From Pseudorhodoferax soli (lineage in GTDB: Bacteria > Pseudomonadota > Gammaproteobacteria > Burkholderiales > Burkholderiaceae_C): a stretch of DNA of 63,794 nt. Made by a program: the position numbers and the translations under genes. The DNA lies in NCBI RefSeq assembly GCF_003337555.1, contig NZ_QPJK01000018.1, forward strand, positions 1-63,794. The letters run 5' to 3'. The notes beneath the pieces are model-generated. The model did no database searches. It saw only the letters and a list, made by a program, of their open reading frames with translations, and was not told where the DNA came from. Every line of letters begins with the position of its first letter. The first letter of the stretch is position 1. Positions 4,524 to 63,174 of the stretch are shown here, one piece after another.

Positions 4524-5409
4524 CGCCACCAACGATGTGCAGGCGCAACTGAAGGCGCTGCGGCTGAACGGTATGGCCACTGCCTGGGCCGATCTGACCG
4601 AGCAAGGGGGCGATACCACCTTGGCCGCTTCACGCTGGCTGATCGAGCACCTGCTGCAGGCCGAGGACGCCGACCGGGCCATGCGTTCGATTGCCCATCA
4701 GATGAAGTCCGCCCGCTTCCCCATGCACCGCGACCTGGCTGGCTTCGACTTCGCCGTCTCGCAAGTCGACCAGCAGTTGATCAAGAAGCTGGCCGATCTG
4801 ACGTTCACCCAGGATGCGCAGAACGTGGTGCTGGTCGGTGGACCGGGCACTGGCAAGACCCATCTGGCCACGGCGCTGGGCATCTCGGGACTGACCCGGC
4901 ACGGCAAGCGGGTGCGCTTTTACTCCACGGTCGATCTGGTCAATGCGCTGGAGCAGGAGAAGACCCAGGGGCGGGCTGGCCGCATCGCCATGAGCCTGGT
5001 GCGCATGGACTTGGTCGTGCTGGATGAATTGGGCTACCTGCCGTTCAGCCAGGCCGGCGGCGCGCTGCTGTTCCATCTGCTGTCCAAGCTGTACGAACAC
5101 ACCAGCGTGATGATCACCACCAACCTGACGTTCGCTGAGTGGTCCAGCGTGTTCGGCGATGCCAAGATGACCACGGCCTTGCTGGACCGGCTGACCCACC
5201 ACTGCCACATCATCGAGACGGGCAACGAGTCCTACCGGTTCCGCCACAGCAGCCATGAGGCCAAGGGGCGGATCAAGACGCGGGAGCAGAGCCGCAAGGT
5301 GACAACTGCTCAGTTCGTTGGAGACGCGGAGGGGGCCTCGCCTGACGGCTCGGGAACAGCCCAAACCAATGCAAGAAAAGGAGGCTCGACCGAGGCGGAC
5401 AACCTATAG
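4516..5409 (+). CDS. istB: IS21-family helper ATPase IstB
   Basis: 297-residue AAA+ ATPase that assembles with IstA and helps choose and remodel the target. Walker A is [15 protein letters not shown] (around residues 112-120) and Walker B is [13 protein letters not shown]. The start is the ATG at 4516 preceded by GGAGGTCGGCC. The last 40 or so residues after the [10 protein letters not shown] segment go beyond the usual 250-residue IstB and look like low-complexity readthrough; the ATPase core is complete. Confidence 0.95.
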
Positions 5410-5498
5410 TTATTCACAGCTGGCCTTCACGAGGGCCGCTCCAGCCCCTGGTCAATATTCGATTGGCACTGGTGGTCAAGATTGGATCGGCGCCGACA

Positions 5499-5505
5499 GC
5501 CAGCA
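5499..5505. repeat. Right copy of the IS21 target duplication (GCCAGCA)
   Basis: Identical to the 7 bases at 2882-2888. IS21 elements normally duplicate 4 to 8 bp. Confidence 0.92.
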
Positions 5506-15063: not shown

Positions 15064-15118
15064 GTTGGGTCACAGCCGGCTTCGAAGCCGGCAACGAGAT
15101 GGTGCGGGGGGGGCGGGC

Positions 15119-16105
15119 TCAGCGAACGGCGGTGTCGGCGAACATGCGGGTGGCGCTTGCCAGCGATGCGCGGCAGTCCTGCAGCATGCGGTCGATGAGT
15201 GCCTGGCACGTCGGGATGTCGTCGATGAGGCCGATGCACTGGCCGGCCCAGATGAGACCGTCGTCTGCTTGGCCGGACTCGAGAGCTGCGCGTCCCCGAG
15301 CACCAGAGACCAGCGGCCTGAGGTCTTCGAACGTGGCGCCCTCGGCGCGACGCTCGAGCTGGTTCACTTGTGCTGCAACGGCGTTGCGCCAGACGCGAGC
15401 CGTGTTGCGCAGGCCGCGGAAGATGAGTGTGGTGTCGTTCTCGCTGGCACCCGTCAACGCCTCCTTCACATCCACATGGATGGGGGCCTCCTGGGTCATC
15501 ATGAAGCGCGTTCCCATGTTGACCCCCTGAGCACCCAGCGACAGCGCCGCGGCCATCGTGCGTCCGTCCGCGATGCCGCCCGAGGCGACAACGGGGATGT
15601 TCAGCCTGGCGCACGCAGCGGGAATCAGGATGAGGCCCGGAATGTCATCCTCACCGGGATGTCCAGCGCATTCGAAGCCGTCGATGCTGATGGCGTCCAC
15701 CCCGCGCTTCTGCGCAGATAGGGCGTGGCGAACCGAGGTGCATTTGTGGATGAGCTTGATGCCGGCGCGCTTGAAGGCTTCCGTCATCTCGTCGGGGTGT
15801 CGGCCGGCAGTCTCCACAATCTTCACGCCGCTCTCGATGATGGCCTGTGCGTAGTCGCCGTAGGGCGGCGGCGACGCGGTGGGCAGAATCGTCAGGTTCA
15901 CCGCGAACGGCGCAGAGGTCATCGCCCGGCAGCGCTCGATTTCGGCGAGCAGTGCCTGCGGCGTGGGCTGCGTCAAGGCAGTCAGTGTCCCGAGGCCGCC
16001 TGCATTAGACACAGCGGCGGCCAGCTCAGCGCGCCCCACCCACATCATTCCCCCTTGGATGATGGGATAGCGGATGTTCAGCAGTTCGGTAATGGCGGTT
16101 TTCAC
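15119..16105 (-). CDS. Nitronate monooxygenase-family FMN protein
   Basis: 328 residues, TIM-barrel of the 2-nitropropane dioxygenase family. IRYPIIQGGMMWVG at the N-terminus, AGGLGTLTA, GVDAISIDGFECAGHPGEDD and the phosphate-binding IPVVASGGIADGRTMAAALSLGAQGVNMGTRF. The label does not prove nitroalkane oxidation: the family also contains IpdC-type enzymes that desaturate or reduce ring CoA esters in steroid catabolism, and enoyl-reductase relatives. Its position between ACAD and enoyl-CoA hydratase genes favours a role on a CoA-thioester. Confidence 0.9.
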   Translation of the reverse strand: MKTAITELLNIRYPIIQGGMMWVGRAELAAAVSNAGGLGTLTALTQPTPQALLAEIERCRAMTSAPFAVNLTILPTASPPPYGDYAQAIIESGVKIVETAGRHPDEMTEAFKRAGIKLIHKCTSVRHALSAQKRGVDAISIDGFECAGHPGEDDIPGLILIPAACARLNIPVVASGGIADGRTMAAALSLGAQGVNMGTRFMMTQEAPIHVDVKEALTGASENDTTLIFRGLRNTARVWRNAVAAQVNQLERRAEGATFEDLRPLVSGARGRAALESGQADDGLIWAGQCIGLIDDIPTCQALIDRMLQDCRASLASATRMFADTAVR

Positions 16106-16127
16106 AGTTCAGTTCTCCTTGGCAGCG

Positions 16128-16871
16128 TCAGGCCGACTTGTTGCTCTTGACGGGACCGAGTGGTTTGCCACCGAACACGTCGAACTCGGTACACGCCTTG
16201 GACCAGGCTGCCGGCGGCATGTGCAGGGTGGCGGCGCGCATGCCCGACTTGACCGCAGCGACGGCATTGGCTGGGAATGCTGCGATGGCGGTCGCGCGCT
16301 CTCGCGTTCTGGCCAGCACTTGGTCGTCCTCCACACACTCGGTACCGATGCCAAGGCGGACCAAGTCGTCCGCGGGGATGCGCTCCGCCGTCAGACAAAG
16401 ACGTGCTGCGACCGCTTCGCTGTGGCGCAAAGCAAGCCAGGCCGCAATACGGGGCGCGGCCATGCCGATGCTGATTTCCCCCACCTGCAGGAAGGCGCTG
16501 CGGCCGCAGACCATGAGGTCGCCGGCCAGCGCGAGAGCGGCCCCGCCATTGATGGCGTAGCGCTCAAGGGCGACAAGCCACACCTTCTTGCTGGACACCA
16601 GGGCGGTGTGGACAGATTCCCACAGGGAGGGCCATCCGGCTACCCAGTCGGGTTTGGGCTCTGCCGAGAACGCTTTGGTGTCCAGGCCCGAACAGAATGC
16701 ACCGCCTGCGCCGCGGAGCACGACGGCGCGGATATCCTGGTCCTCTTCTATCTGAGCGATAGCGTCCTTCAACGCGCTGGCCAAGGTTCCTTCGACCGCG
16801 TTCTTTCGGTCCGGCCGGTTGAGGATGAGTTCGCACCAACCTGGGTGCTTTTCGAGAAGGACGACGTCCAT
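16128..16871 (-). CDS. Enoyl-CoA hydratase/isomerase family protein
   Basis: 247 residues, crotonase fold. LILNRPDRKNAVEGTLASAL at the start, oxyanion-hole loops RGAGGAFCSGLDTKAF and ERYAINGGAALALAGDLMVC. It hydrates or isomerises a 2-enoyl-CoA, the step after the ACAD pair. The helix carrying the first catalytic Glu of canonical hydratases is not cleanly conserved (ISIGMAAPRIAAW), so isomerase, hydrolase or lyase chemistry is possible. It is spaced 22 bp from the flavoprotein gene downstream, so probably cotranscribed. Confidence 0.88.
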   Translation of the reverse strand: MDVVLLEKHPGWCELILNRPDRKNAVEGTLASALKDAIAQIEEDQDIRAVVLRGAGGAFCSGLDTKAFSAEPKPDWVAGWPSLWESVHTALVSSKKVWLVALERYAINGGAALALAGDLMVCGRSAFLQVGEISIGMAAPRIAAWLALRHSEAVAARLCLTAERIPADDLVRLGIGTECVEDDQVLARTRERATAIAAFPANAVAAVKSGMRAATLHMPPAAWSKACTEFDVFGGKPLGPVKSNKSA

Positions 16872-47718: not shown

Positions 47719-48789
47719 TCAGTGCGTTCGCGTAGCTTGGCACGTATGGTCCTCCACATGCGCCATGAGACTTTCCCCAATCACTTGCCCGAGTCGCACG
47801 GGAACAGCATTTCCGATCAAGCGACCAACAGTGGTCATGTGGATTCGCTCACCGGCCTTCACGAACTGGTATCCCCGCGGAAATGTCTGCAGGATTGCGC
47901 CCTCGCGCAGAGAGAGCGCACGGTCCTGCTCGGGATGACCAAATCGACCGCTGCCGAAGCCGTAGAACTGAGTAGTGATAGTGGGAGACGGAAAATCCCA
48001 ATCCATCCGTCCATACACGCCGGGAAAGCTCTGTCCTGTTTCGCTCTTGTGGCACGGCGCAAGCAGATCAGGATCCCAATCGCGCCAGCTTCCGCCAGGG
48101 CGAGCGGCCCTGATTCGGCGCTCGTTGAGTTCGGTGAGCCGACTCGTCCGGTGGATTGGATCGTGTTGAGAAGCTTCACCCGCACCAAGCGCCTGCATTC
48201 CCTGTATTGCCGACCGAACAGTGCGTCGCCGGTCACGCTTAGGGTCGCGATCACGCAACTTCAACTCGCCGAGTCGCGAGGCAAGCAAGACCAAACGGGC
48301 GCGGGCCTGCGGAATTCCGTACTCCTCGCACTTAACGATGCTGACACTCACTTGATAGTCGTTGTCGCGGAGCGTCTGGACGAACCCAGCGAAGACCGCA
48401 TGCTTTCGCACCTGCGGAACGTTCTCCATGGTCACCAGTGTCGGCAGGCACTCCTCAACAATACGGCCGAAATGCTCCAGCATCGGCCACCGAGCGTCGG
48501 ACTCGTCGGTCTTGTGAAGGCTGTAAGCAGAGAACGGCTGGCAGGGTGCGCACCCAGCCAAAAGTGAGATCGAATCCTTGTTCCTGCCGAAATGCGCGTC
48601 GATCTGGGCGCCGGTCAGCTCACCAACATCCGCGCGATGGAATTTCGCTCGACCGTTGTTCTTCTCATACGGCCATTCACAAGCTGCATCTATGTCGTAA
48701 CCAGCGACGACACCAATACCAGCCTTGCGCAGCCCGTGGGTCAGCCCTCCCACGCCACAGAAAAGGTCCACTGCAGTAATAGAAGGCAT
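47719..48789 (-). CDS. druM: DNA (cytosine-5) methyltransferase of a Druantia type II locus
   Basis: 356 residues. Motif I DLFCGVGGLTHGLRKAG, motif IV with the catalytic cysteine GCAPCQPFS, motif VI MENVPQ, motif VIII QARARLVLL and motif X IGNAVPVRLG. It transfers methyl from SAM to C5 of cytosine. Last gene of the five-gene operon that includes the giant helicase, matching DruM of Druantia type II. Its length (356) and short target-recognition region resemble stand-alone Dcm-like enzymes; specificity is unknown. Whether it marks self DNA for the system or serves as an effector part is not established by sequence. Confidence 0.9.
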   Translation of the reverse strand: MPSITAVDLFCGVGGLTHGLRKAGIGVVAGYDIDAACEWPYEKNNGRAKFHRADVGELTGAQIDAHFGRNKDSISLLAGCAPCQPFSAYSLHKTDESDARWPMLEHFGRIVEECLPTLVTMENVPQVRKHAVFAGFVQTLRDNDYQVSVSIVKCEEYGIPQARARLVLLASRLGELKLRDRDPKRDRRRTVRSAIQGMQALGAGEASQHDPIHRTSRLTELNERRIRAARPGGSWRDWDPDLLAPCHKSETGQSFPGVYGRMDWDFPSPTITTQFYGFGSGRFGHPEQDRALSLREGAILQTFPRGYQFVKAGERIHMTTVGRLIGNAVPVRLGQVIGESLMAHVEDHTCQATRTH

Positions 48790-48834
48790 GGCTCAGAGCA
48801 AAACGTCACTGCGTTCGATGTTATCCGATCGACC

Positions 48835-49278
48835 TCACGAAGAGCCTGCCGGCGCCCGCGCGAGCTCGCCCAGCCGCGCGACGATTGCGGCCACGGCGTC
48901 CTCGACTGGTTCATGCTCCCAGATCCGTAAAACCGACCACCCGGCCCCGGCAAGCCTCACGTCGGAATCTCGGTCCCGCGCCGTGTTGGCAGCGATCTTC
49001 TGCCTCCACCACTCCGCATTCGTCTTGGGCTGTGTGGCATGCCGCGGGCAACCGTGCCAGAAGCAGCCGTCGCAGAACACTGCAAGTTGATATCGAGTGA
49101 AAGCGATGTCGACCGTTCTCGTCGTACCCACAATGGCTCGGAAGTGGATACGAAATCGGAACCCCATCTTGTGGAGCGCAGATCTGATCGCGCGCTCGCG
49201 CGCGTTGTCGAAGCCACGTGTACGGGCCATTCGACGGCTAGTTGCCGCCGCGGTTTCGGTCCGAGCGAACGCTGTCAT
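48835..49278 (-). CDS. vsr: Very short patch repair endonuclease (Vsr)
   Basis: About 147 residues from the ATG at 49278; the frame extends upstream into the intergenic region. RERAIRSALHKMGFRFRIHF, VDIAFTRYQLAVFCDGCFWHGCPRH with the catalytic Asp and zinc/DNA-contact residues, NAEWWRQKIAANTARD, and VLRIWEHE. Vsr nicks T:G mismatches arising by deamination of 5-methylcytosine and normally pairs with a Dcm-type methyltransferase, here the gene 45 bp downstream. Lies 52 bp after the helicase gene, so cotranscribed. Confidence 0.92.
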   Translation of the reverse strand: MTAFARTETAAATSRRMARTRGFDNARERAIRSALHKMGFRFRIHFRAIVGTTRTVDIAFTRYQLAVFCDGCFWHGCPRHATQPKTNAEWWRQKIAANTARDRDSDVRLAGAGWSVLRIWEHEPVEDAVAAIVARLGELARAPAGSS

Positions 49279-49330
49279 GATCCAATCAGAACGGGCGGCG
49301 TACGAACACGTGTTGGTCAACCGCTTCTGG

Positions 49331-52300
49331 TCATGCGTTGCGATCCACCGGCGCGCGGGCGAGCCGACCGCTCCTCGCGAGGTCGATGGCGCGCTGCGGC
49401 CTGCGCGATGCATGGAACGTGTCGATCAACCAAGTCGTTCCTTCGAACTCCGTGCCCAAACTCTCCAGCGCTGTGGCCTCCGACCACAGTGGGTGTACCA
49501 GAACATATCGTTCCCTGCTGCGTCTACGCACGACGGCGGGCAGCTGCAACGACCCTGCCGATTCCAATGTGAAGACGTCCGGACTGAGCGAAACGAGGTC
49601 CATGGCAATATCGCGAGCATCGGTGGGCCAGTCCTCCAGCTCCGCGGCGGTAGTCCAATTGCCGTCGCTGCCTGCGGCCCAAGCGGGGTCCACGAGGACA
49701 CGCAAGGCGGCCAAGCCGAGCCGCCAGTCCAAGAGCCCGTGGTACTGACGGTTGCCATAGCGCAGCATGCATTCATAGCAGGCGGCTTTGCAATTGCGCC
49801 GATGATGAAGCGTGAGATACCCCTTGATCAGCGGATCAGTGGTGGGCGTCTCCACCATACTGCGTATCAGTCTCAGCACCTCCGGCTCAGCGCCCGCCCC
49901 CAGACGGCGACAGAATCCGGCACCGTTCGGTAGGAAGTCGCTGATCTGAAGCACCGGCTTGCCATTCCTCAAACGCGGCTCCAGAGGGTCGAACTCTGCA
50001 GGGTCGATATCCATTGCGAGTGCAGCGCGTTGCACCAGGAGTTGCGTCGCACTGACGAGCGCCGCACGAACGCCAGTGTCAGCCACGTCTCGTCCAATAC
50101 GCCCCACATCCAGGCGAGCAGAAACCGAAGTTGGCGTCAGGAACAAGGCATCCGTCGTCTTGCGGGACATCAAGCGCACGACCTCGGCATCACCTTGGCC
50201 ATCGATACGCTTCCAGGCCGCGAGCTTCTGGCAGGCCTCTGGAGTCAGCATCTGACCTGGAAGCCGCCAGTCCCGTCGGGGGGCGATCTGCACTCGATGC
50301 GACTCCACCGGGAAAAGTGTGAAAGGGCGGACGCTATCACCATCGCCGATACCATCGTTGAGCCTCAGTACGGTGGCCTTGTCCGAACTCCCCACCGATA
50401 GGTTGCTGCCTTCGATCTCGCGGATCGCGATGTCGTTGGCTTCGATCGTCACCACACGACGGAAAGCTACGAGGTCCTCGTTCTCATCCGCGGGTTCAGA
50501 TCGAAATGTCGTCGTGAAAGCGCGAGGTGTCACATAGCGTTCGAACAGTTCCTTCGCAAGCGAGGTACGGCAGTCGCAGCAACTCACCGAAACCGTCGGC
50601 TCCTGGACGACGCTTGCAACGGCGCCGCAGGAGGGGCACGCAGCGATCCATCGTTCTTCGTCCATCCAAGCTTCCGCGATAGTCGCATCGCTCCCCCGTC
50701 GAAACGGGCTAGGAGACAATAGCACCGAAGACAGCCCGACCGACTCGAAGCGACGCTTGTCGCGTACCAGCGAACGTCCCGGTGCGAACTCGAAGATCGC
50801 AAGATCCTGCTCCCGGTCGACAGTGGAGAACTCGGCCGCAGCACGGCCCTCCTGCTTCGCACCCATGTACAACGGCTTGACTCGTGTCGGCATGCCGTAC
50901 ATGGGCAGGATCCCGTGTTCGGCCAAGAACTCTCCGAGCGGCTTAGGCGACGCAGCGCCTTCCTTTTCGAAGGACCAGATCAGGGCGACGAGATCATCGA
51001 CCTGCAACCCACCGATCATTTCATTCGAAAGCGTTGGGTCGCGGTCCGCTAAAGCAGCTATGACCGCATCCCGCGTTGAGACCGTCTTGGATAGCGCAAA
51101 TCCGAGCCGCGACTTCCAATCGCCATCGGTCGCGTAGACGGCCGAAGCCCCAGGGAACTCACCATGCGTGTCGTGGAGCAGATCCCCCGGATACGCTGCG
51201 CCATCCTCGGCACGCAGCAGGCCGAAGGCGCCGACCAACCAAGCCTTTCGTGCCACGCGAAGTGCAATGTCTCCGTGTCCGCGCGTCAGAAAGGGCGGCG
51301 GCGGCGGATCGCCGGTGATCGCCTCTGGGTTCCGAAAGTAGTGAAGGTCGTGGCTGCGACTTCGACAGAGCGTGGCAACGAAGGAGAATGCTTGGCCTCG
51401 CCGGCCGGCGCGGCCCACACGCTGCTGATAGTTGAACCGCTGCGGCGGCATGTTGGCCTGGTAGACGGCCTGCAATGGCCCGATGTCGATACCGACCTCC
51501 ATGGTCGTCGTGACGGACAACAGGTCCGTCTCGATGGCGCGTCTTCTGAGCGAGATCTTCTCGGGGCGCCCTTCGTCCACAAAGATCCCCTTGAAAGCGC
51601 GCAGCCTATCGGCCGGCGACTCGGTCTGGCCGGTCAACTCCGCGCACGAGAGCCTGAATGCCGCGTCCTCGGTTTGGAAACCTCGGGCCAGTCGACGCGC
51701 AAGGAAATTTGCTCGCTGCAGCTCATCGACGGATCCACTCGGGACGGTGGGGAGCGGTTCTAGGCATCGCGTGCAGAATCCAGTTCCACGGTGCAGGTGC
51801 ACTCGATCGCATGTGGCGCATCGATAGAACGGATCTCCCGGCTTCGATAGCTTGACATACAGACCGATCAATCGAATCACTCCACGGTCGTGGTCGTTTC
51901 GCGAAAGCTCCTCCAGTAGTCTGCGCATCACCGCGTTCGGGTCTTGTCCCACTGAAGAGGCCTCAGCAAACCTACGAATGCGTCTTGGCAGTTCCTCCGG
52001 TCTGTCGACATACGCCGGATCCGTCCATTTGTTCCCCTCGACGCTATAGCTATCGCCGAAGACTCGCAGATATGCATCGAGTCGGTCCGAATCGGGCGTC
52101 GCGTTGGCAGTGATGGAGGGGTAGCCAATGCCCGTCTCCTCTAACGCGAAATAGTTCTTCGAGAACAGCACCTCGTACGTCAACGGCCGTTGCTCTGCCA
52201 CCATGGCGCTGCGTGCAAGACCAGGCTGGTCGTTCTGGTCGATCGAGATCCATTCAGGAGTTCCTGACCGCCCCTTCGGATCGACCCACTCGAACCATGG

Positions 52301-55150
52301 CCTGTCTTGGACCAGGTTGACGCCCGCCGGATCGATAGGATGAACGCCAAGCTCCACGTGTCGACGCATCAGTGGCCTCAGAATCGCATCGCGCGGCGCT
52401 TGAGGCTCGAGCAGGTCGGCGAGTGCAACACGCGAACCGTCGCCTCGCTGTCGAGCAAGCTCCGCCAGGTCGAACAGGCGACGGTACTCGGCCTTGTCCT
52501 TCCTATCGAAGGCTTCGTCGGCCTGCCGTTCCAGCTCTGCGGCATCCATGCATACATTCTCTTCGGCGAGCCTTCGAATCTCGGCGACGAGAAGCTGACG
52601 ACGCATGTCCTGGTGGTGACGGCGCTCGATGTCGAGGGCCGCTCGGGCGGCATCCTGCCGACTGTCTGAGAAGACGATCGATTTCGTGGCGGTCCCACTC
52701 ACGTGGAGAAGCGAGAAGACCTCAGTCGCAAGCAGCTGAGAGGCCTTGGCGAAACCTGTTCGGAAACTGCGGAGCGGCGAGAGAGCACCCATGCCCTTCT
52801 TTCTCGCAGAGTAGTCGCTCCCACACGAGGGGCACGCCCTTGGGAGCGCAGAACCCGCAGTGCTCGCTCTGAGCGACGTGCGAAACAGCGAGCCGGGAAC
52901 TGTGAACTCCCCGCTCCCTGTTGGAAGTATCACGCTGTTGCGTGTGTCCAGAACTCGGTGGACCCATTCCTCAGTCGCAGGAACGTTCCTGGGTTCGGCG
53001 CGCGACGGCCAGAACATTGCGTACTCGTCGTGTGCCAACTTCTCGTAGAGCGTATCGCTCGAGCGCTCCGGCAACTGCTCGAGATCGGGAGACGTCGTAA
53101 GGAGCTCGGATCCCTTGGACGATTGGGCACTTCGACGACCGCCAATAAAGAGCTCCCCGCAACACTCGCAATAGATCATCTCGAACATGCGCCTGGAGCG
53201 CATGTCGTTGCCAACGGAATGAGTCTGACCCCGCTCGATGCTTGGCTCGTCGTATCGAACGACGGACCCTTCCATGCGTGGCGCACAGAAGAGGCCCTCC
53301 ATGCTTCGGAAGAACGTGTGCACTCGAAAACTTGGGAGATGCGCAGGTAACTTTGCCGTGTAGAGGCCCTTTTCCCCGATGCGGTCGCCCAGACCCCGAA
53401 GAAGACAAAGGCCTTGAAGGGCAGCTTCCCGATCTGGGTCTTCCTCCCCAAAGATTGCCGACGCGACTGAACTGGCGGCCGTTGCTCTGGATGTGCCGCC
53501 TTGAGCAGGACCACATGCGTGCGCCAGGATTCGAGCAGTCTCGGCCACGAGATCGACTGCCACCTGAGGAATGGGCCGAGCCGCTACTTCGATGCCCAGC
53601 GCGCTGGCTGCGTCGATGATCAACCCGTCGAGCACATGCGGCGGTGCTTCGATCCGAGCAACGAAGCGATCGGCACCGGAAGCCAAAGTATCGACCAATG
53701 CAACGAACGGCTTCGTCGGCAACTGCGCGTGCGCTGTAGGCGGTTCGTGGACCGGCGTGCCCTTCACGACAGCCCCAAGCCACGTCTCGCGGCTGGCGTC
53801 GCCCATAAGGCCAGGAGCGGCAGAGGTGCCAAACGTTCCGAAGAAGTCCTGCAGGTACTGCGCCGTCTCATCCGCTTCGGCCCCTTCAGTCGGCAAGGAG
53901 GCGCTGGAGGCCAGCACGCGCAGCTTGTGCCGCATCTCCGGAAGGTGAAGATCGAGCCTGGCGATGAGCGTTCTGAGCAGGCCGACGACCTCCGCACCCG
54001 ACGAGCCGCGGATCAGGTGCAGTTCGTCCAGGATCAGGAAGAAGTAGGCCTCTGGCGACGATCTCAACCACTTGCGCGTGGCATCCCAGATCGGGGCCTC
54101 GACGTCGCGCACGAGCATGGTCGCCAACATCGACGTGTTCGTGACGAGAATGTCCGGAGGCGACATCTGCATATCCCACCTTGAGACAAGCTCACCCCCG
54201 TCCAAGGAGGGGAACATGTACCGGGTCGGCTCGGGAGGCTCCACACCACTTTGCCGTGCTTCAGCGGCTCCACGCGCGTCGTACCGGCGAGCGGTATCCT
54301 GGTCGTCGTCGAGATCCTTCATTGCCGTTGCGAGCTTTTCGATCCGTGTCGCACGCCTGCGCACCTCGTCGGGATCCCCCGCGAGACGCGGATGGTCGAG
54401 ATGTCCGGTGACCGGCGCCTGCCCGGTGTATCGCCCGAAGAACACCCTGTTCCCGCGGAAGCGATCGTCCATCACGGCGTGCGCTTCGGGCGAATCGAAC
54501 GTCTTCCTGAGGCGTCCCATCTGATCCTCCACCAATGCATTCATCGGGTAGAGCAACAACGCCCTCACTGCCATCGGCCGCTTCGGATGCTCGAAATCTC
54601 GACGTGGAAGGAATGTTCCTCCCCGAGTGAACCATCGGGTCGGAGAAGCCGGCCGGAGCGGCTCCGGCCAATGGACTGCCTCCTTGGACAACGCCGCGAG
54701 CAGCGGCAGCATGAACGATTCGGTCTTTCCGGAGCCAGTGCCGGAGGTGACGATGCCCGGACTGCCGAACAGAACACCCTTGGCGAGCATGTCCATCTGA
54801 TGCCGGTACGGCTTGAAGAATCGAGCCCGCCTCAGCTCACCCGATTTCGTTGCCTTGCCCGGAAAAAGTCCAGACAGGGCAAGTTCGATGAAAGCCCGGC
54901 GCTCATCGTGGGAGAACGCCTCCAACGGGTTCCCGCTTCCCTTGAGCTTGAGAAGATCCTCCAGAGCATGCTCGGATTCCATGTAGCGAGCGACGGGCTC
55001 CAGGAACAGTTCCGTGGTCAATGCCCCAGGGCTACGAAGCAGACGCCTGCGAGCCTCCGCCAGATCCGGGTCGGCGATCCTGAACGCGGTGTCAAGGTAG
55101 CTCAGCCAGAATTCGCGAACTCGCTCAAGGGATCCTATCGGGTCGATCAT
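49331..55150 (-). CDS. druE: Giant DEAD/DEAH-like helicase with C-terminal DUF1998-like region (DruE)
   Basis: 1939 residues. Walker A VTSGTGSGKTESFMLPLL (about 135-145), Walker B variant LILDELHLIRGSSG (about 376), motif III SASLPTEG, motif V LLSVTTTMEVGIDIG (about 1215) and motif VI QQRVGRAGRRGQ (about 1248). Several zinc-type Cys pairs: CECCGE (about 661), CPSCGSDY, CATCDR with CTRC (about 1117), CPSCG with CCDC, and the C-terminal CKAACYECMLRYGNRQYHG (about 1790), characteristic of DUF1998 helicases. Size and neighbours point to DruE of Druantia; DISARM DrmA and Dpd helicases are shorter and have other partners. Starts 9 bp after the 733-residue gene. Confidence 0.9.
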   Translation of the reverse strand: MIDPIGSLERVREFWLSYLDTAFRIADPDLAEARRRLLRSPGALTTELFLEPVARYMESEHALEDLLKLKGSGNPLEAFSHDERRAFIELALSGLFPGKATKSGELRRARFFKPYRHQMDMLAKGVLFGSPGIVTSGTGSGKTESFMLPLLAALSKEAVHWPEPLRPASPTRWFTRGGTFLPRRDFEHPKRPMAVRALLLYPMNALVEDQMGRLRKTFDSPEAHAVMDDRFRGNRVFFGRYTGQAPVTGHLDHPRLAGDPDEVRRRATRIEKLATAMKDLDDDQDTARRYDARGAAEARQSGVEPPEPTRYMFPSLDGGELVSRWDMQMSPPDILVTNTSMLATMLVRDVEAPIWDATRKWLRSSPEAYFFLILDELHLIRGSSGAEVVGLLRTLIARLDLHLPEMRHKLRVLASSASLPTEGAEADETAQYLQDFFGTFGTSAAPGLMGDASRETWLGAVVKGTPVHEPPTAHAQLPTKPFVALVDTLASGADRFVARIEAPPHVLDGLIIDAASALGIEVAARPIPQVAVDLVAETARILAHACGPAQGGTSRATAASSVASAIFGEEDPDREAALQGLCLLRGLGDRIGEKGLYTAKLPAHLPSFRVHTFFRSMEGLFCAPRMEGSVVRYDEPSIERGQTHSVGNDMRSRRMFEMIYCECCGELFIGGRRSAQSSKGSELLTTSPDLEQLPERSSDTLYEKLAHDEYAMFWPSRAEPRNVPATEEWVHRVLDTRNSVILPTGSGEFTVPGSLFRTSLRASTAGSALPRACPSCGSDYSARKKGMGALSPLRSFRTGFAKASQLLATEVFSLLHVSGTATKSIVFSDSRQDAARAALDIERRHHQDMRRQLLVAEIRRLAEENVCMDAAELERQADEAFDRKDKAEYRRLFDLAELARQRGDGSRVALADLLEPQAPRDAILRPLMRRHVELGVHPIDPAGVNLVQDRPWFEWVDPKGRSGTPEWISIDQNDQPGLARSAMVAEQRPLTYEVLFSKNYFALEETGIGYPSITANATPDSDRLDAYLRVFGDSYSVEGNKWTDPAYVDRPEELPRRIRRFAEASSVGQDPNAVMRRLLEELSRNDHDRGVIRLIGLYVKLSKPGDPFYRCATCDRVHLHRGTGFCTRCLEPLPTVPSGSVDELQRANFLARRLARGFQTEDAAFRLSCAELTGQTESPADRLRAFKGIFVDEGRPEKISLRRRAIETDLLSVTTTMEVGIDIGPLQAVYQANMPPQRFNYQQRVGRAGRRGQAFSFVATLCRSRSHDLHYFRNPEAITGDPPPPPFLTRGHGDIALRVARKAWLVGAFGLLRAEDGAAYPGDLLHDTHGEFPGASAVYATDGDWKSRLGFALSKTVSTRDAVIAALADRDPTLSNEMIGGLQVDDLVALIWSFEKEGAASPKPLGEFLAEHGILPMYGMPTRVKPLYMGAKQEGRAAAEFSTVDREQDLAIFEFAPGRSLVRDKRRFESVGLSSVLLSPSPFRRGSDATIAEAWMDEERWIAACPSCGAVASVVQEPTVSVSCCDCRTSLAKELFERYVTPRAFTTTFRSEPADENEDLVAFRRVVTIEANDIAIREIEGSNLSVGSSDKATVLRLNDGIGDGDSVRPFTLFPVESHRVQIAPRRDWRLPGQMLTPEACQKLAAWKRIDGQGDAEVVRLMSRKTTDALFLTPTSVSARLDVGRIGRDVADTGVRAALVSATQLLVQRAALAMDIDPAEFDPLEPRLRNGKPVLQISDFLPNGAGFCRRLGAGAEPEVLRLIRSMVETPTTDPLIKGYLTLHHRRNCKAACYECMLRYGNRQYHGLLDWRLGLAALRVLVDPAWAAGSDGNWTTAAELEDWPTDARDIAMDLVSLSPDVFTLESAGSLQLPAVVRRRSRERYVLVHPLWSEATALESLGTEFEGTTWLIDTFHASRRPQRAIDLARSGRLARAPVDRNA

Positions 55151-55159
55151 CAGTCTCGA

Positions 55160-57361
55160 TCAGCGTTGTAAGTGGAGGGCCTTCAGCTCGGCATGCGCAC
55201 CGCGAAGGGGTTCATCGAGGTCATCAAGCCGACCTGTCGTGAGGAACGTTGCCCAGGACAGCGCGACATCTGACGCCTGCGATCCTTCGAGCGCGGCCCT
55301 GAGGCGGAGGGCTCGAGCCACCGTAACTGGTGCGTGCTCATCGCGGCGAAGCTGTGTAGGCGGACTTTTGGGTTTGAGAGCGCGCGACGCCAGATCGGCC
55401 GTCAGCGTGGTCGGAATTCCCGCCTCGGCGCCCAACGCGTAGTCGCACCGGTACCCGTCCGGTTCGAACCGAGCCTTGATGGCGATGAGGTCACGCCGGA
55501 GCGCAAACGCATCGGGGAACTCATCGTCGTCCGAGTCACGACCGACCATCGTCGACACCACCAGGAGATTCGATGGTCGAGAGGAAGAATTCAGGACTGC
55601 CCGCAGTGAGCCGATCCAGAGCCTGAACGGCGCCGAATCAAGGTTCCGAAGGCACAGGAGCACCGTGCTTTCAGGCTCCAGTACCGCACGGTTCCACGCC
55701 ATGGCGAACGCAGTCGGGCGATGACTTCCAGGTACTCGCCAGAGATCATCCAAGCCGATCGCACTCGGATCCAAGACCTGATTGCGCACCCTCCCGCCCG
55801 CCACTGCACGCGCGAGCGCGCCAAGCGCCAACTCCGAAGCGACTCCAACGAGGAGGACGAGCTCACCAGCTCGAAGTGCACCATCGAGCAGCTGAACATC
55901 CGCTGTCTGCACGCCAAAGAAGCGTGCTTCGTGGTCGAGCCTGCTGGGGAGCTCTGCCAACCCGATCTCCAACGGGGCATCACCGGTCGGCGACCACCAC
56001 GGGGCGCTGTGCATGGGCGTTGCGGAAGAACCCAGTAGTCCCTTGAGGCGAAGACCCAGCTGGGCAGCACGCTCGTCGCCGACCAGGTTGGCTGCTTCGG
56101 TCGAATCGAGAAGCTGCGCTGCGAGCCCCTCGAGCTCAAGCTTGAAGCTGCGAACTCGTTGTTCGGCCACCGATTCCTCGCTGGCGGCCGTCATGGCTCT
56201 GGCCTCCGCGGCCGCTCTGTTCCTGTCGGACGCAGCGAGCTCCTCAGCCGATCGACTGAGAGCGCGCTGACGAACCGCAAGTTCGTCGCCCGCACTCTTC
56301 ACTTTCCTGTCAGCCTCGTCCGCGGCTTCTCGCGCTCTGATTCCCTCTGTTTCGAGCCTCAGTTTCTCGGAAAGAAGCGTCTGAATCTCGTCGTCCAGGC
56401 CGCGCACCTCTTCCCGTCGCTGCCGCAGTGACTCTTCGAGCGTCGCACGCGCTTGCCTCTCGATGTCCGCCAACATCGTTTGCGCCCTGCTCGCCACCAC
56501 GCGTTCGAGCAGCGACTTGCCAGCTTCCGATTTGATCAGCAGCTCGCCCAGCTCCTGCACGGCATCCAACGACTCGACCGCCGCGGGCCAACCTTCGCGC
56601 AGTCGTCTGATCGACACGTCACTGATACGCGCTTCCTCACCAACGACGCGCGCGTCGGTCAACGACTTGAGGAGGCGCTTCGCGGGATCTTCCACACCCT
56701 TCGAGCTGAGACCGAAGTAGGAGTCGACGGCTGCCCTGTAGCGTTCCAGAATCCTTGCGAGGAACTCACGATCAGGCGTCCAATCGATCAGTTCCCCGGT
56801 CGACCCCGTGCCCGCTTCGATGGGAAGGTAGGCGAAGTCATCCGAGTGTTGATATGGATTCCAGGAAGCATCGATCGTTGGCAGCTCGACGACGCCATCC
56901 GCGGGTAGTCTGGCCACCCAAGTCGTGCCGGACTTCTCGAACTTGAAGCGCCCGTACCGCCCTTCGGACAACAATACAAATGCCTGACGAGGCTGGTGGT
57001 CGGGAAGCCGGACACCATCCCTCAGGATTCTTTTTCGAGCCTCCGCGGTAGTTAGATGCCGAAGATCCAGAACAGGGATCGCTCGCGTTGGCACAGCGGC
57101 TGATGGTCGCTTGTCCGAGTCACCCAAAGCCTCGCGGGGGAAGAACCAGAAGCTCCCGATGCTCCCATGTCCGTTCAGCTCTCCCCGGGCAACTTGAACA
57201 CCACTGCTGCGAGTGAACCGCTTCCTTCGATCGTCCAAGCGAACCCAAGCGCCATCCTGCAGCATCGCCAGAGGGTCGAAACGCGCAAAGAATTGGTTGA
57301 CCTCGGCAAGCTTGCCGAAGAAGCTGTCAAGGGCTGTTGACGGCTGAGGTAACTCGTTCAT
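55160..57361 (-). CDS. Druantia type II accessory protein with long coiled coil (DruF or DruG)
   Basis: 733 residues. No enzymatic motif recognised. An N-terminal globular part (TALDSFFGKLAEVNQFFARFD) is followed at about residues 300-430 by a strong coiled coil (RQRREEVRGLDDEIQTLLSEKLRLE and repeated Ala/Glu/Arg heptads), then a C-terminal domain with ELVLLVGVASELALGALARAV and VLEPESTVLLCLRNLD that looks like a degenerate P-loop-type fold. Overlaps the preceding gene by 4 bp (ATGA). Gene order and size match one of the two Druantia II specific proteins; I cannot decide between F and G. Confidence 0.8.
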   Translation of the reverse strand: MNELPQPSTALDSFFGKLAEVNQFFARFDPLAMLQDGAWVRLDDRRKRFTRSSGVQVARGELNGHGSIGSFWFFPREALGDSDKRPSAAVPTRAIPVLDLRHLTTAEARKRILRDGVRLPDHQPRQAFVLLSEGRYGRFKFEKSGTTWVARLPADGVVELPTIDASWNPYQHSDDFAYLPIEAGTGSTGELIDWTPDREFLARILERYRAAVDSYFGLSSKGVEDPAKRLLKSLTDARVVGEEARISDVSIRRLREGWPAAVESLDAVQELGELLIKSEAGKSLLERVVASRAQTMLADIERQARATLEESLRQRREEVRGLDDEIQTLLSEKLRLETEGIRAREAADEADRKVKSAGDELAVRQRALSRSAEELAASDRNRAAAEARAMTAASEESVAEQRVRSFKLELEGLAAQLLDSTEAANLVGDERAAQLGLRLKGLLGSSATPMHSAPWWSPTGDAPLEIGLAELPSRLDHEARFFGVQTADVQLLDGALRAGELVLLVGVASELALGALARAVAGGRVRNQVLDPSAIGLDDLWRVPGSHRPTAFAMAWNRAVLEPESTVLLCLRNLDSAPFRLWIGSLRAVLNSSSRPSNLLVVSTMVGRDSDDDEFPDAFALRRDLIAIKARFEPDGYRCDYALGAEAGIPTTLTADLASRALKPKSPPTQLRRDEHAPVTVARALRLRAALEGSQASDVALSWATFLTTGRLDDLDEPLRGAHAELKALHLQR

Positions 57362-58451
57362 GAGGCAAATGTTCGCATGGTGCGATCCGCTCGGTGACGC
57401 GCCATCCCGATCGATCTTGAGCTGAGCGGATCATTGAACCTGGTCGGTGCGGCCTCGCTTCGAACGATGTGGCGTCCGAGGCAGGCTCGTACTGCGTTGA
57501 GCCCAAGGGCACAGGAAGGGTACGCGTATCCCCAACTCGTGCCACATGGGATGACGCCTGGCGATCTCAATGTAAGGGCGTGCAATGTGCAAGCCAGGTG
57601 CAGCGGCAGGTGTCCGCTAGCGGACAACCTCGTGAGCAACGCGCCGCGCTCCAGAAACATCGCCCTGCGCGCCCTCCGAAATGCCTCGCATAGGGCAACC
57701 GACCGCGAAGGAGATACGAACCGAACTGGCGAACCTCCATCGACGCTGTAGAGGTCTTCCCTGTCCGCCTCGACGCGGCGCCACCAGCGCACATCGACCT
57801 CCTCCGCTGCAGCCTTCAATCCGAGGTCACGGAACTCCCCTGCTGACCAGCTCCACTCCTTATGGAGACGGTGCTTGTCGATTCCGGCCGGGGCTACCGA
57901 CCACGATGCAGGTCCCCGCAATCGAGCCGCGCTTCGAAGAGTCCCGATGGGCCAGGCCAGCTCTTCGGAAAGCCTTTGCAATGGAACGCCCATTGCCACG
58001 GACGTCAGTGGAGAGAGCGATCCCACGCCTTGCAGGGATTTGACAGTCCCGCCCATCGAGAGCACTGTCGCCTGGAACCGGGCGCGAACGCCCCAGCTTG
58101 CCGACCCGCACAACAGTACCGCCTCCGACCCGTCCGCCCTGATCGCGCTGAGGCTCGGCCTGACGAGGCACCAAAGGCTTGCCCGCCATCGAATGGCAGC
58201 CTTCGCTTGCAACCATCCGGATTCTTGGAGTGTTCGAAGGATTTCCCAAGGCGACGGTCCGGGGATCAGCTCTCGAATCAAGCCGATGAGATCTCGTTCT
58301 GCCCATCCCGACGCGCCCCTCGCGTAGATAACTTCGAGAAGGTCGTCGAAGAGCGACTCTCGGTTCGGATCGCTCCATCGCTCGAAGGGGGCAGAATCCG
58401 CGACCTCGATTTCGGCTTCGATCCACGCCTCGTCATTGGTTTCGACCTTGT
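57358..58451 (-). pseudogene. Druantia type II accessory gene, 5' end removed by the tni element
   Basis: The reading frame is convincingly coding well upstream of the first usable start (TTG at 58281): KVETNDEAWIEAEIEVADSAPFERW and SLFDDLLEVIYARGASGWAERDLIGLIREL run from 58445 down. It continues without a stop into the transposon terminal repeat, ending at a TAG at 58513-58515. No ATG or GTG occurs in frame in this upstream part. The gene therefore lost its N-terminus when the tni element arrived at 58452. The remaining protein would be about 307 residues from the TTG. It is the promoter-proximal gene of the five-gene operon. No function recognised; one of DruF/DruG by position. Confidence 0.72.
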
Positions 58452-58642
58452 TGTCGAAGAACGAATAATCTGCAAACTTGATCGAATGATCGGCTAATCG
58501 CTTCTGCAGCGCCTACCCAAGCGCTACGCGGCTTGCCAGCCAGGTCGGTGCTTCAGTCCGATGGTTGCGCTTTGGCAACGATTGCCGGACCTTGCACGAA
58601 AAATCCGCCAGTGCGTTGCGATTTGGACGCATAAACTGCAAG
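58452..58642. repeat. Left end of the tni element with four transposase-site repeats
   Basis: Terminus TGTCGAAGA, then repeats at 58461 (ACGAATAATCTGCAAA), 58482 (TCGAATGATCGGCTAA), 58596 (ACGAAAAATCCGCCAG) and 58627 (ACGCATAAACTGCAAG), all in one orientation. Spacing of 21 bp then wider gaps resembles TniA/TnsB binding sites at Tn402 and Tn7 ends. Confidence 0.75.
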
Positions 58643-58670
58643 CGTGTTGCACTCCCTTTGAACGGCTGCA

Positions 58671-60344
58671 ATGACCTCCAAGTCGCCCCCAAAGTCTGTT
58701 TCAGTGCGCGGCCGCACGCCTGGTGTACTTGAGGGCGTCGCGAGCAAGCGCTGGCGGCAACTTGAGCGGATTGCGCAGGCCTTACGTGCCCTAGGCGACA
58801 CCCCATTGACCCAAGCCCGGGCCGAACGCTTGGCCGAACGCTTCGGCGTTCATTGGGCAACCATCTATCGCTACCGTGCGCGCCTCGGTGAGATTGACGA
58901 GGCCAGCGCCATTGCAGGTCGCACGCGTGGATGGAAGCCGCTGGCATCGCGCCTCTCGGTCAAGCAGGAGCAAGGCATCGAGGAGGCCATCAACGTGCTG
59001 CGGAAGAGGGCTGGGCCAACACGCGTCGTCGACCTGGTCGAGGAAGTCGCCGCGCGTTGTCGGCTGCTCCGGGTCCCCTGCCCTTCTCGCCCGGCCATTG
59101 ACCGGCGCCTTAAGCGCTACAGCGGCATCAAGGTTCATCGACGTGGAGTGGCGACGCCGGGAAACGCTGACCCCAAGATCTCGCCGGGCTCGTTCATCGT
59201 TCAGCGGCCACTGGACGTCGTGCAGATCGACCACACGCCGATGGACATCGTCGTGGTCGACGACCTCTATCGCCAGCCCCTGGGCAAGCCATACCTGACG
59301 CTGGCCACCGACGTGGCCACGCGCTGCATCCTCGGCTTCGTGATCTCGTTCGTGCCGCCCGGCGCCGGCACGGTGTCACTCTGCATGACGCTCATCGTCT
59401 CACCCAAGGCGGCTTGGCTGCAGCAGCTTGGCGTCGTTGGCGATTGGCCAATGGCGGGACTGCCCAAGACGCTGCACCTCGACGGCGCGGCCGAGTTCAA
59501 GAGCAAGGCCTTGAAGCGCGGCTGCGGCCAGTACGGCATCGAGCTTGTCTATCGCGAGCGACCCCACCATGGTGGTCACATCGAGAGGCTGATCGGCACG
59601 AAGATGAGCAAGCTCAAGAGCTTGCCTGGTGCCACCGGCGGCTCTCCCAAGGCTCGCCGCTCCTACGACCCCGACAAGCACGCCGCACTGACACTGGGCG
59701 AACTGGAGGCCTGGTTTGCACAGCAGATCGTGGGCCGCTACCACCACGATCCGCACCGCGGTCTCAAGGGCGGTACGCCCGCTGGCGCTTGGGCATTACA
59801 TCCAGCATCGGGTTTACCACCCGGGCCGCTAAAGCGCTTCCGGATTGCCTTCCTTCCTGCCATCAGCCGTACGTTGCGCCGAGACGGCATCGTGTTCGAA
59901 CACCTGCGCTACTGGCACCCGATCTTCTCGCAGTGGTTGGCTCGTCGCGAGCGTCTGACCCTGCACTTCGACCCGCGCAATCTGTCCAAGCTGTACGTGC
60001 CCCATGAAGATGACTACTTGGAGGTGCCATTCGCGGACCTGCGCTTGCCTCCCGTGAGTCTGTGGGAAGTGCAAGCCGCGACGCGCCATCTGCGCCTGGC
60101 CGGACAAAAGTCCATCAACCCGGCGCTGCTCGTCGAAGCCATCGAAAAGCAGCGTGGGATCGTGCGGGCCGCGCAGGCCAAGACCCGCAAGATGCGCCGC
60201 AAGCAGCAGGTTGCCCATCGGCCAGCCACCGTCGGCATCGACCCACTCAATGAAGCTGCCGCGCCAACGCCGAAGTCCGAGATCGACTGGAGCAAGCCAG
60301 CCGTGCCGTTTGAGGGAGAAGTTTGGCACAGCCGCCGCCGCTGA
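58671..60344 (+). CDS. tniA: Transposase TniA (Mu/rve-type DDE)
   Basis: 557 residues. N-terminal HTH region LAERFGVHWATIYRYRARLGE, then the integrase core: first Asp in VVQIDHTPMDIVVVDD, second Asp in LHLDGAAEFKSKALKRG, and Glu in HHGGHIERLIGTKMSKL. The C-terminal Mu-type beta barrel contains RRERLTLHFDPRNLSKLYVP. Joins the ends of the element to target DNA with TniB. Length is normal for TniA. 22 bp separate it from tniB. Confidence 0.95.
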   Translation: MTSKSPPKSVSVRGRTPGVLEGVASKRWRQLERIAQALRALGDTPLTQARAERLAERFGVHWATIYRYRARLGEIDEASAIAGRTRGWKPLASRLSVKQEQGIEEAINVLRKRAGPTRVVDLVEEVAARCRLLRVPCPSRPAIDRRLKRYSGIKVHRRGVATPGNADPKISPGSFIVQRPLDVVQIDHTPMDIVVVDDLYRQPLGKPYLTLATDVATRCILGFVISFVPPGAGTVSLCMTLIVSPKAAWLQQLGVVGDWPMAGLPKTLHLDGAAEFKSKALKRGCGQYGIELVYRERPHHGGHIERLIGTKMSKLKSLPGATGGSPKARRSYDPDKHAALTLGELEAWFAQQIVGRYHHDPHRGLKGGTPAGAWALHPASGLPPGPLKRFRIAFLPAISRTLRRDGIVFEHLRYWHPIFSQWLARRERLTLHFDPRNLSKLYVPHEDDYLEVPFADLRLPPVSLWEVQAATRHLRLAGQKSINPALLVEAIEKQRGIVRAAQAKTRKMRRKQQVAHRPATVGIDPLNEAAAPTPKSEIDWSKPAVPFEGEVWHSRRR

Positions 60345-60366
60345 CCTAGAACTTGGGAGGATCGCC

Positions 60367-61242
60367 ATGCCGGTTCATGCACACCTCTGCGCTGAGGCTC
60401 GCGTCATCGCGGACCTCGGCGATGCCCAGCGAATTGCCCATCTGGCCGAGGATCACTGGATCGACTACCCACGAGCGCGGCAAGCCCTGCAAGAGCTAGA
60501 ACGCATGTTGGACTGCCCTGAACGCACCCGCATGCCAGGACTCTTGCTGCACGGCGAGTCCAACATCGGCAAATCGATGGTCATACGGAAGTTTCTGCGC
60601 GCCCACCCGCCGCGTGAGTTCAACACGGACACAGGTCTTCTGCAGGTAGATGTTCTGGCCGTCGAGATGCCTTCAGCACCGCAGGAGCGACGCCTTTATG
60701 GGCAGTTGCTCATGGCCTTGAATGCGCCCTATCGTCCTGGAGACCGTCTGGCTGCCGTGGAGTTCACCGCGCTGACAATCTTGCGCAAGGTGGCGCCGCG
60801 CATGATCATCGTGGACGAGGTGCACAACCTTCTGGCCGGTACAGCGCACGAGCAGCGTGCGTCGCTGAACCTGCTCAAGTTCCTGTCTAACCAGCTCAAG
60901 TGCGCGATCGTTGCGCTCGGCACCCGAGACGCGCTGGCCGCTATGCAAACCGACGCCCAGATCGCCAGCCGCTTCCCGAGCTTCGAGCTTCCGCGGTGGC
61001 AGGAGAACGAAGACTTCCGAGGCTTCCTGGCTGGGTTCGAGCGGCAACTGCCACTGCGACAGGCATCCCGAATCTCTGGGAGCCGCGCCATGGTCAGCGC
61101 GATCATGAGCGCCACCAGCGGGATCACGGGGCACATCAGCGAGCTGTTGTGCCGCGCGGCGGAGGCGGCGATTCGTTCAAAGAAGGAATGCATCACACCG
61201 GAACTCCTGCAGTCTGTGATCGGTGCACGCTCGTTCGCATGA
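60367..61242 (+). CDS. tniB: Transposition helper ATPase TniB
   Basis: 291 residues from the ATG at 60367, preceded by TGGGAGGATCGCC. AAA+ protein: Walker A LLLHGESNIGKSMVIRKFL, Walker B RMIIVDEVHNLL, sensor VALGTRDALAAM. Works with TniA in target capture, like TnsC. Coupled to tniQ by an ATGA overlap. Confidence 0.95.
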   Translation: MPVHAHLCAEARVIADLGDAQRIAHLAEDHWIDYPRARQALQELERMLDCPERTRMPGLLLHGESNIGKSMVIRKFLRAHPPREFNTDTGLLQVDVLAVEMPSAPQERRLYGQLLMALNAPYRPGDRLAAVEFTALTILRKVAPRMIIVDEVHNLLAGTAHEQRASLNLLKFLSNQLKCAIVALGTRDALAAMQTDAQIASRFPSFELPRWQENEDFRGFLAGFERQLPLRQASRISGSRAMVSAIMSATSGITGHISELLCRAAEAAIRSKKECITPELLQSVIGARSFA

Positions 61243-62264
61243 GAACCGCTGCGACGCGACATGCCGGCCTGCCCTTCGTTCCCCAGCCGAGACCGGATGA
61301 GCTTCTGGGCTCGTGGCTTCTTCGCATCGCGCAGCTCTACGGCCTGAGCCTGACAACGCTTCTGGTCCGGCTGGGTACCCTGCAAACTGGCACTGCTCAA
61401 CTTCCTCATTGGTTTTCCATCGACGCCAGCACTGTCAACATGGACGCCTTGTCCGCGGCAACGCACTTGCCGCGATCCGATCTGGAGACGATGACTCCTG
61501 CAGCTTGCAGGCCCCACTGGCCTGAAGAACTCGGTGCTTGCGAGAGATGTCTGACGGAAGCAACGCACTCCGGCGAGTCACTCGTGTGGAATCGGAACTG
61601 GATGAGCCCCTGGGCCACCGTCTGCAACATCCATGGCACGTTGCTGACTCCAGTGGCCACGCGTCGGCTGATTCGTGTGCGATGTACAGAGACTCTCGGC
61701 GCTGCAATTCAGTCGGCGGCCACGGCTCCAAAATTGCTCGATGAGGAGCCCATCTGTGCGAGCGACGCCTTGTGGTTGCAGGCTCTATGCATGGCCAGAA
61801 CAGCCGTGCGTTTGCCGTGGGGGAGAACCCGGCCGAGCGATTTGGCTCGTGTCGTGAACGCTGTGGCCCATGAGGTGATCTCCCAGCCAACCTTCGACGG
61901 GAGCGCTTGCGCGCCTACGGCCAACTCCCGAACACTGGCAGTCAAGGACTTCGCGCTCGAGTCCACGGCTGATCAGCGAGCGGTGGCGTCGCTGCCAACC
62001 CACCTACGGCAACGCCAATGGGTCCTGGCCAGGGTCGCTCACGTCTTGCGATGGGCACTTGAGGCGAGGACGTTTCCCGCCTCTTGGTCATCGGCTTCAG
62101 TCAAGCGCATGGCATCGACGAGCGGATGGCCGCAGGGGGCCCTCGCCTGGGTATGCCCCGATGCAGCCGACTTGGTCCTTCAACAAGGCGAGCTGAGAAG
62201 GAAGCACAGCATCTCACCCAGCTACTTCAAGGCCTATTCGGCCCTGCTTGCTTCGATCCAGTGA
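61239..62264 (+). CDS. tniQ: Target-site adaptor TniQ
   Basis: 341 residues from the ATG at 61239. PQPRPDELLGSWLLRIAQLYGLSLTTLL is the typical TniQ opening; zinc-finger-like residues follow in GACERCLTEA and ATVCNIHGTLL. TniQ/TnsD proteins direct TniAB to target sequences. No DNA-binding extension for a defined attachment site is recognised. Confidence 0.92.
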   Translation: MRTAATRHAGLPFVPQPRPDELLGSWLLRIAQLYGLSLTTLLVRLGTLQTGTAQLPHWFSIDASTVNMDALSAATHLPRSDLETMTPAACRPHWPEELGACERCLTEATHSGESLVWNRNWMSPWATVCNIHGTLLTPVATRRLIRVRCTETLGAAIQSAATAPKLLDEEPICASDALWLQALCMARTAVRLPWGRTRPSDLARVVNAVAHEVISQPTFDGSACAPTANSRTLAVKDFALESTADQRAVASLPTHLRQRQWVLARVAHVLRWALEARTFPASWSSASVKRMASTSGWPQGALAWVCPDAADLVLQQGELRRKHSISPSYFKAYSALLASIQ

Positions 62265-62307
62265 ACCGATCCGTAGGGGGCGGCTTTGCTGCCGCTGACC
62301 AGGATCA

Positions 62308-63174
<867 letters not shown>

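Follow-up and report, generated by a model that had tools for sequence, protein, structure and literature searches.

Introduction

Vsr genes (V genes) accompany restriction-modification systems that methylate cytosine at C5, and E. coli has a dcm-vsr pair. The type II Druantia system (DruM, DruF, DruG and DruE) is described, in the accessible part of PMC10273834, as a four-gene system, with one gene for a methyltransferase, one for a helicase and two for hypothetical proteins. The accessible part of PMC8565338 gives DruM and DruG as required for type II, and that of PMC12458937 equates type II Druantia with type IV CoCoNuT. A literature search, based on papers available in part and with the original 2018 description and supplementary tables outside its scope, returned no report that a separate Vsr gene accompanies type II Druantia, and no experiment on this system.

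Results

A vsr gene in a run of type II Druantia genes

The window is the whole stretch of DNA analysed here, a contig of 63,794 nt from Pseudorhodoferax soli. Five consecutive minus-strand genes, among them a 5mC methyltransferase, a Vsr and a helicase, had been predicted at 47719..58451, and all five are open reading frames in the predicted places, closely packed:

47719..48789, minus strand: druM-like C5 cytosine methyltransferase, 356 aa (PF00145, 2.1e-47; PADLOC DrmMII, 5.1e-86, and DruM2, 4.1e-71)
48835..49278, minus strand: vsr mismatch endonuclease (TIGR00632, 4.5e-33, above cut-off; PDB 1cw0, 3.4e-14)
49331..55150, minus strand: druE, YprA-family helicase, 1939 aa, frame intact (PADLOC DruE2, 2068.8 bits, residues 1-1924)
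55160..57361, minus strand: druG, 733 aa (PADLOC DruG2, 2.5e-18; our own iterated HMM, 437 bits)
57358..58451, minus strand: druF remnant, the 3' part without the 5' half (PADLOC DruF2, positions 556-813 of 850; our own HMM, positions 503-845 of 849; alignment)

The genes stand in the order F-G-E-V-M, and each of druG, druE, vsr and druM forms one uninterrupted open reading frame. The vsr frame opens at 49413 and its likely start is the ATG at 49278; measured from this ATG, druE and vsr are 52 nt apart. With an overlap of 4 nt between the druF remnant and druG, 9 nt between druG and druE and 45 nt between vsr and druM, the spacing resembles that of a single operon.

We compared the five proteins with PADLOC models. 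The helicase scored 2068.8 bits with DruE2 and 1144.8 bits with DruE4, druG scored 64 bits with DruG2, and the druF remnant 111 bits with DruF2. The methyltransferase matched DrmMII best (286.9 bits), with DruM2 at 238.2 bits. Vsr reached 51.7 bits in PADLOC and 114 bits with the NCBIfam model TIGR00632, against a cut-off of 97.85. An assignment of the helicase to DISARM or Dpd, the outcome that would have counted against the original prediction, was rejected in both cases, since DrmA gave 23.6 bits, DpdJ 47.2 bits and DpdF 15.9 bits; the sole strong match to DISARM models among the five proteins was that of the methyltransferase. The prediction of type II Druantia by gene size and order thus holds as to type, by PADLOC profile; it does not hold for druF, which is a remnant, or for gene order, which is not the M-F-G-E frequent among relatives. 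Judged by its sequence, the locus is a remnant of a type II Druantia system, in which DruE2, DruG and a DruM cytosine methylase are matched and a complete DruF is not. Genes of the DruE2 type are uncommon in the window's family, with matches at E 1e-100 in 3 of 299 genomes, the window's own included.

Elsewhere on the contig, positions 4516-7049 encode a DrmD-like protein (PDLC02630, 2e-40) and, after it, an AAA_13/PDC-S06 ATPase represented by its C-terminal part (profile positions 269-782 of 790); they make a second pair of defence genes, perhaps truncated.

Vsr is frequent among related loci

We collected DruE relatives from plasmids (10 of 23 matching records) and from species genomes, where the best 80 of 495 confirmed matches gave 77 loci. 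Each locus was searched in all six frames with our own HMMs. The survey comprises 89 loci, including the window and two short stretches (L003 and L004), with one duplicate removed; because its species-genome part is the best 80 of 495 matches, it samples close relatives preferentially. L085, from the same record as L015, was excluded from counts, and the better score was taken where a locus had two DruM candidates (L059, L070 and L073). HMM scores divided the survey into 50 window-like loci, whose DruF is strong and of the type seen in the window, and a remaining 39, L003 and L004 among them, which were separated by our own HMMs (weak DruF, no DruG) and not by the full PADLOC rules.

Vsr was present in 36 of the 50 window-like loci in this survey, which includes the best 80 of 495 matches; its absence from like loci, named beforehand as the mark of a chance neighbour, was not what we observed. 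The 50 loci consisted of 36 with DruM and Vsr, 11 with DruM and no Vsr, and three with neither; for the 43 with full flanks the corresponding numbers were 34, eight and one. L059, counted as DruM without Vsr, has a Vsr 1.9 kb outside the fetched stretch. In L028 the vsr gene (4774-5273) is split in two frames, and this locus was kept for the presence count and left out of the Vsr tree and correlations. The same gene is intact in a close relative, L034 (4773-5273), indicating that Vsr can decay while the rest of the locus stays.

The 39 other DruE loci, from the same survey with its best 80 of 495 matches, had both genes in 12 cases, DruM only in 16, neither in 10 and Vsr only in one, the decayed locus L014. 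The Vsr rate was therefore lower in this group, at 12 of the 28 DruM-bearing loci. Across all loci (best 80 of 495 matches included), Vsr accompanied DruM in 48 of 75 cases and was found in 1 of 14 loci lacking DruM (p = 8e-5); among full-flank loci alone the same comparison, 45 of 62 versus 1 of 4, was not significant (p = 0.08).

The 39 other loci differ among themselves. A C5 methyltransferase is present in 28 of them (survey including the best 80 of 495 matches), and that of L060 scores 484 bits with DruM2. The DruE proteins of L047, L060 and L061 match PADLOC DruE2 and DruE4 about equally, as does the DruF of L047 for DruF2 (709 bits) and DruF4 (696 bits), so the border between type II and type IV Druantia looks blurred, and other authors might assign some of these loci to type II. 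In a type II locus of Roseomonas (L007), druE and the methyltransferase gene are separated by genes for a DUF262 protein and a HEPN-like nuclease (14938-16682). DruF and DruE of the window's type also occur in Gemmatimonadota, Acidobacteriota, a Chitinophagaceae bin, Blastopirellula and Rubrobacter (L027, L029, L033, L041, L070 and L015); canonical type II Druantia is reported only in Proteobacteria in the accessible part of PMC8565338.

Vsr occurs beside DruM more often than beside other C5 methyltransferases

Vsr commonly pairs with C5 methyltransferases. In a sample of 140 genomes of the class, with the window's Vsr left out, a C5 methyltransferase lay within 10 kb of 18 of the 22 Vsrs, and a Vsr lay near 18 of 76 C5 methyltransferases (18 of 77 if two adjacent genes of genome G393 are split). 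The first of these proportions is consistent with Vsr being a chance neighbour of Druantia, or a relic of one old hitch-hiking event in which a methyltransferase-Vsr cassette landed beside it. Against it we set a control within the genomes of 36 of the 40 window-like genome loci, four (L022, L030, L040 and L046) being omitted because they lie near contig ends. Vsr was found at 27 of 34 DruM-bearing loci versus 6 of 26 other C5 methyltransferases in the same 36 genomes (Fisher p = 1.9e-5; such values are too small because the loci are related), with Vsr counted within 10 kb of control methyltransferases and up to ~16 kb from DruM at the loci. The 26 control methyltransferases include four (G442:C51, G459:C51, G468:C202 and G469:C60) encoded on contigs other than that of the Druantia locus, and none of these four has a Vsr within 10 kb. 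One genome is common to both control sets (G358 and G469 are the same places). Of the 34 DruM-bearing loci, seven are without a nearby Vsr; PF03852 gave no match at E 1e-6 in the genomes of five of them.

Vsr also changes its place. In the survey, which includes the best 80 of 495 matches, 7 of 36 loci have Vsr between druE and druM, on one strand or the other (the window, L023, L024, L025, L026, L027 and L035). In 13 of 36 it is less than 1 kb from the 3' end of druE, and DruM is over 10 kb distant at the opposite end. In the remaining 16 it is beside DruM or upstream. The original prediction had treated a Vsr between druE and druM as an addition to the type II set. The position is real; it is one of several arrangements, and the gene is a frequent mobile accessory and not an oddity. 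On a DruE tree of 49 loci, without the contig fragment L046 and again with the best 80 of 495 matches included, we count at least 17 changes of arrangement (side, strand and nearness to DruM) and at least seven changes in the presence of Vsr.

We also built a Vsr tree of 77 rows, comprising 35 from window-like loci (best 80 of 495 matches included), 13 from other Druantia loci and 29 picked irrespective of, or away from, Druantia; L121, from the same place as L107, was excluded. The window-like rows need 15 label changes, at least five of them forced by the starred branches. This count is rough because the tree was made quickly from a short alignment (116 columns, four long rows) and 34 of its 74 inner branches are open. 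A single origin of the window-like Vsrs is unlikely on this tree, and several lineages appear to have been recruited. The several origins, the repeated rearrangement, the 13 loci with Vsr far from DruM and the within-genome excess together make chance proximity or a single hitch-hiking event very improbable. We conclude that Vsr beside window-like Druantia is no chance neighbour, and that it is a frequent, repeatedly recruited companion.

Vsr follows DruE on its tree and tends to occur with DruM

We compared pairwise distances among Vsr, DruE and DruM in the window-like loci of the survey (best 80 of 495 matches included). For 35 loci, Vsr distances had a partial correlation of 0.43 with DruE (p = 0.001) and 0.03 with DruM (p = 0.27); for a wider set of 47 loci the values were 0.27 and -0.03. 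Plain identities gave the same pattern, with DruE and not with DruM, in all 35 loci and after thinning to 19 (0.34 and -0.04). The correlation with DruE was strongest in the 15 loci whose Vsr is at a distance from DruM (partial r 0.83); for Vsrs within 2 kb of DruM (n = 20) it was weak, at 0.16 with DruE (p = 0.05) and -0.02 with DruM. All of these values come from the survey with its best 80 of 495 matches. Because the Vsr tree follows DruE and not DruM, these data argue against a Vsr that is specific for, or tuned to, DruM. Gonococcal Vsrs have been assayed with T:G mismatches set in several contexts (PMC6116569), and the accessible part of that work suggests that a Vsr can be broad in sequence context; a Vsr of that kind would not have to track its methyltransferase.

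These correlations, and the 13 of 36 loci in which Vsr is close to druE and distant from druM (survey including the best 80 of 495 matches), raise the alternative that Vsr is the working nuclease of type II Druantia, and cuts phage DNA opened by a DruE whose own Vsr-like domain is dead. Consistent with such a role, inactivated C-terminal Vsr domains have been predicted from structure models in DruE of types I and II (PMC12458937, in its accessible part). A profile comparison of Vsr with the DruE C-terminus detected no Vsr signal (probability <1%), so a link between the two at the level of sequence profiles is unsupported, and the published claim rests on structure models.

The distribution of Vsr points the other way. 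We searched 397 genomes of the phylum for each of the DruE3 and DruE1 helicases, assigning types III and I by the helicase only. In the 11 flanked loci recovered (eight DruE3 and three DruE1; four of the 11, G664, G772, G821 and G562, are cut by contig ends) we detected no DruM and no Vsr. Similarly, the three window-like loci lacking DruM, one of them a contig fragment, have no Vsr, and the decayed locus L014 is the sole case of Vsr without DruM in the survey, which includes the best 80 of 495 matches. The lack of Vsr where DruM is absent favours a role tied to methylation over that of a free-standing effector.

The conserved residues of Vsr also fit a mismatch endonuclease. All 35 aligned window-like Vsrs, L028 being left out and the best 80 of 495 matches included, match TIGR00632 at E values up to 0.001, and residues E29, D58, F74, W75, H76 and W92 of the window Vsr are invariant in all 35. 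The window protein aligns with E. coli Vsr (PDB 1cw0) at 3.4e-14. We take these positions to be E25, D51, F67, W68, H69 and W86 of E. coli Vsr in the usual numbering (the 1cw0 chain is without Met1), of which E25, D51 and H69 are presumably catalytic and F67, W68 and W86 presumably intercalate at the mismatch. To the extent that sequence can tell, the window-like Vsrs belong to the Vsr family and keep its catalytic and mismatch-reading residues. The retention of mismatch-reading residues in Vsrs that stem from several ordinary lineages, the DruM-less loci without Vsr and the 7 of 34 DruM-bearing loci without one nearby make Vsr unlikely to be the working nuclease of the system.

The druF of the window copy lacks its 5' half

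The druF remnant is cut at 58452, the first position of the inverted repeat of a transposable element, and a second mobile element follows:

58452..62373, plus strand: tni transposable element (TniA/TniB/TniQ) with 45-nt terminal inverted repeats, its left end inside druF (repeats; PF05621, PF06527 and PF09299)
62374..63174, plus strand: IS110 transposase fragment (NF033542, 188.6 bits; with PF01548 the match starts at position 52 of 155)

TniA (58671-60344) is followed by TniB and TniQ, which ends at 62264, and the repeat pair (58452-58496 and 62329-62373) is 84% complementary. A second copy of the element, on contig C20 (3282-7202), is 85% identical, and since both copies share their terminal bases, beginning TGTCGAAG and ending CTTCGACA, there is little doubt where the left end falls inside druF. 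No cargo gene was recognised in either copy. A 5-bp target duplication is absent at both; we had considered its absence in the window as a sign of recombination, and dropped this idea because the C20 copy also lacks one. Had the element simply inserted into druF, the missing part of the gene should follow the right end of the element; the IS110 fragment stands there instead.

By our own HMM, the remnant retains profile positions 503-845 of 849, so that approximately 500 of the 849 positions are lost. The DruF proteins of relatives are 785-927 aa long (six annotated or open examples), and a single DruF frame from the profile start to beyond position 800 is present in 44 of 50 window-like loci, in the survey with its best 80 of 495 matches; the exceptions are the window, L015, L036, L041, L046 and L089. 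The 5' half was not found in the window by tblastn with the DruF proteins of five relatives (best E 0.28), nor in the whole 8.16 Mb, 30-contig assembly with the DruF profile and a Burkholderia DruF protein. Because the 5' half was not found in the assembly, we consider that the window copy, with druF cut by the tni element, is probably disabled. The window is one whole contig that ends 1.4 kb past the tni element, so an assembly gap or error at the break is possible.

Since druG, druE, vsr and druM are intact, and the frame of the druF remnant is open up to and beyond the tni edge, the truncated druF could instead still function, or be re-expressed from the transposon end, leaving the window copy active. 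The earliest possible start in the remnant frame is a TTG at 58281. Set against the missing positions and the full DruF frame that most window-like loci keep, an active copy has a slim chance of being correct.

Discussion

We favour the reading that an active Vsr repairs T:G mismatches that arise from DruM methylation, and put its probability at roughly 0.7. In intact relatives, DruM would methylate host cytosines at its motif, and deamination of 5-methylcytosine at these sites would create T:G mismatches. A co-recruited, catalytically intact Vsr would, as its family suggests, nick at the mismatch and lead to short-patch repair. DruE, DruF and DruG would form the attack part, directed against unmarked DNA, by analogy with type III, for which DruE has been proposed as a helicase-nuclease effector (PMC13192584, in its accessible part). 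This reading draws on the excess of Vsr over that at ordinary methyltransferases, on its several origins and conserved residues, and on the lack of Vsr in the 11 DruM-less loci. Evidence counting against it comes from the Vsr tree, which follows DruE and not DruM, from the 13 of 36 Vsrs that lie by druE with DruM more than 10 kb away (survey including the best 80 of 495 matches), from the 7 of 34 DruM-bearing loci without Vsr nearby, and from the lower Vsr rate among the 39 other loci. A combined role, in which the stand-alone Vsr is a true type II component, repeatedly recruited in place of the dead domain of DruE and acting as a nickase that both protects the methylated host and cuts invaders, seems to us quite unlikely.

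The repeated recruitment of a mismatch-repair enzyme is indirect evidence that DruM methylates host DNA, at a cost high enough to select for repair. The vsr gene can also serve as a marker for Druantia loci of this kind.

Like type II Druantia, the window locus combines DruE2, DruG2, DruF2 and a C5 methyltransferase in one gene run. It differs in that druF is truncated and the methyltransferase agrees best with DISARM DrmMII, and it adds Vsr to the type II gene sets given in the accessible parts of PMC8565338 and PMC10273834. Like the V genes of restriction-modification systems and the dcm-vsr pair of E. coli, its Vsr is of the TIGR00632 family, has the catalytic residues and is tied to C5 methyltransferases; unlike them, it is partnered with a Druantia operon, and in related loci Vsr is often by druE instead of the methyltransferase. 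ARMADA, as presented in the accessible part of PMC12458937, also brings together Vsr-type nuclease domains and a YprA-family helicase; in ARMADA the helicase and the Vsr domain form one fused protein, whereas the window Vsr is encoded by a separate gene.
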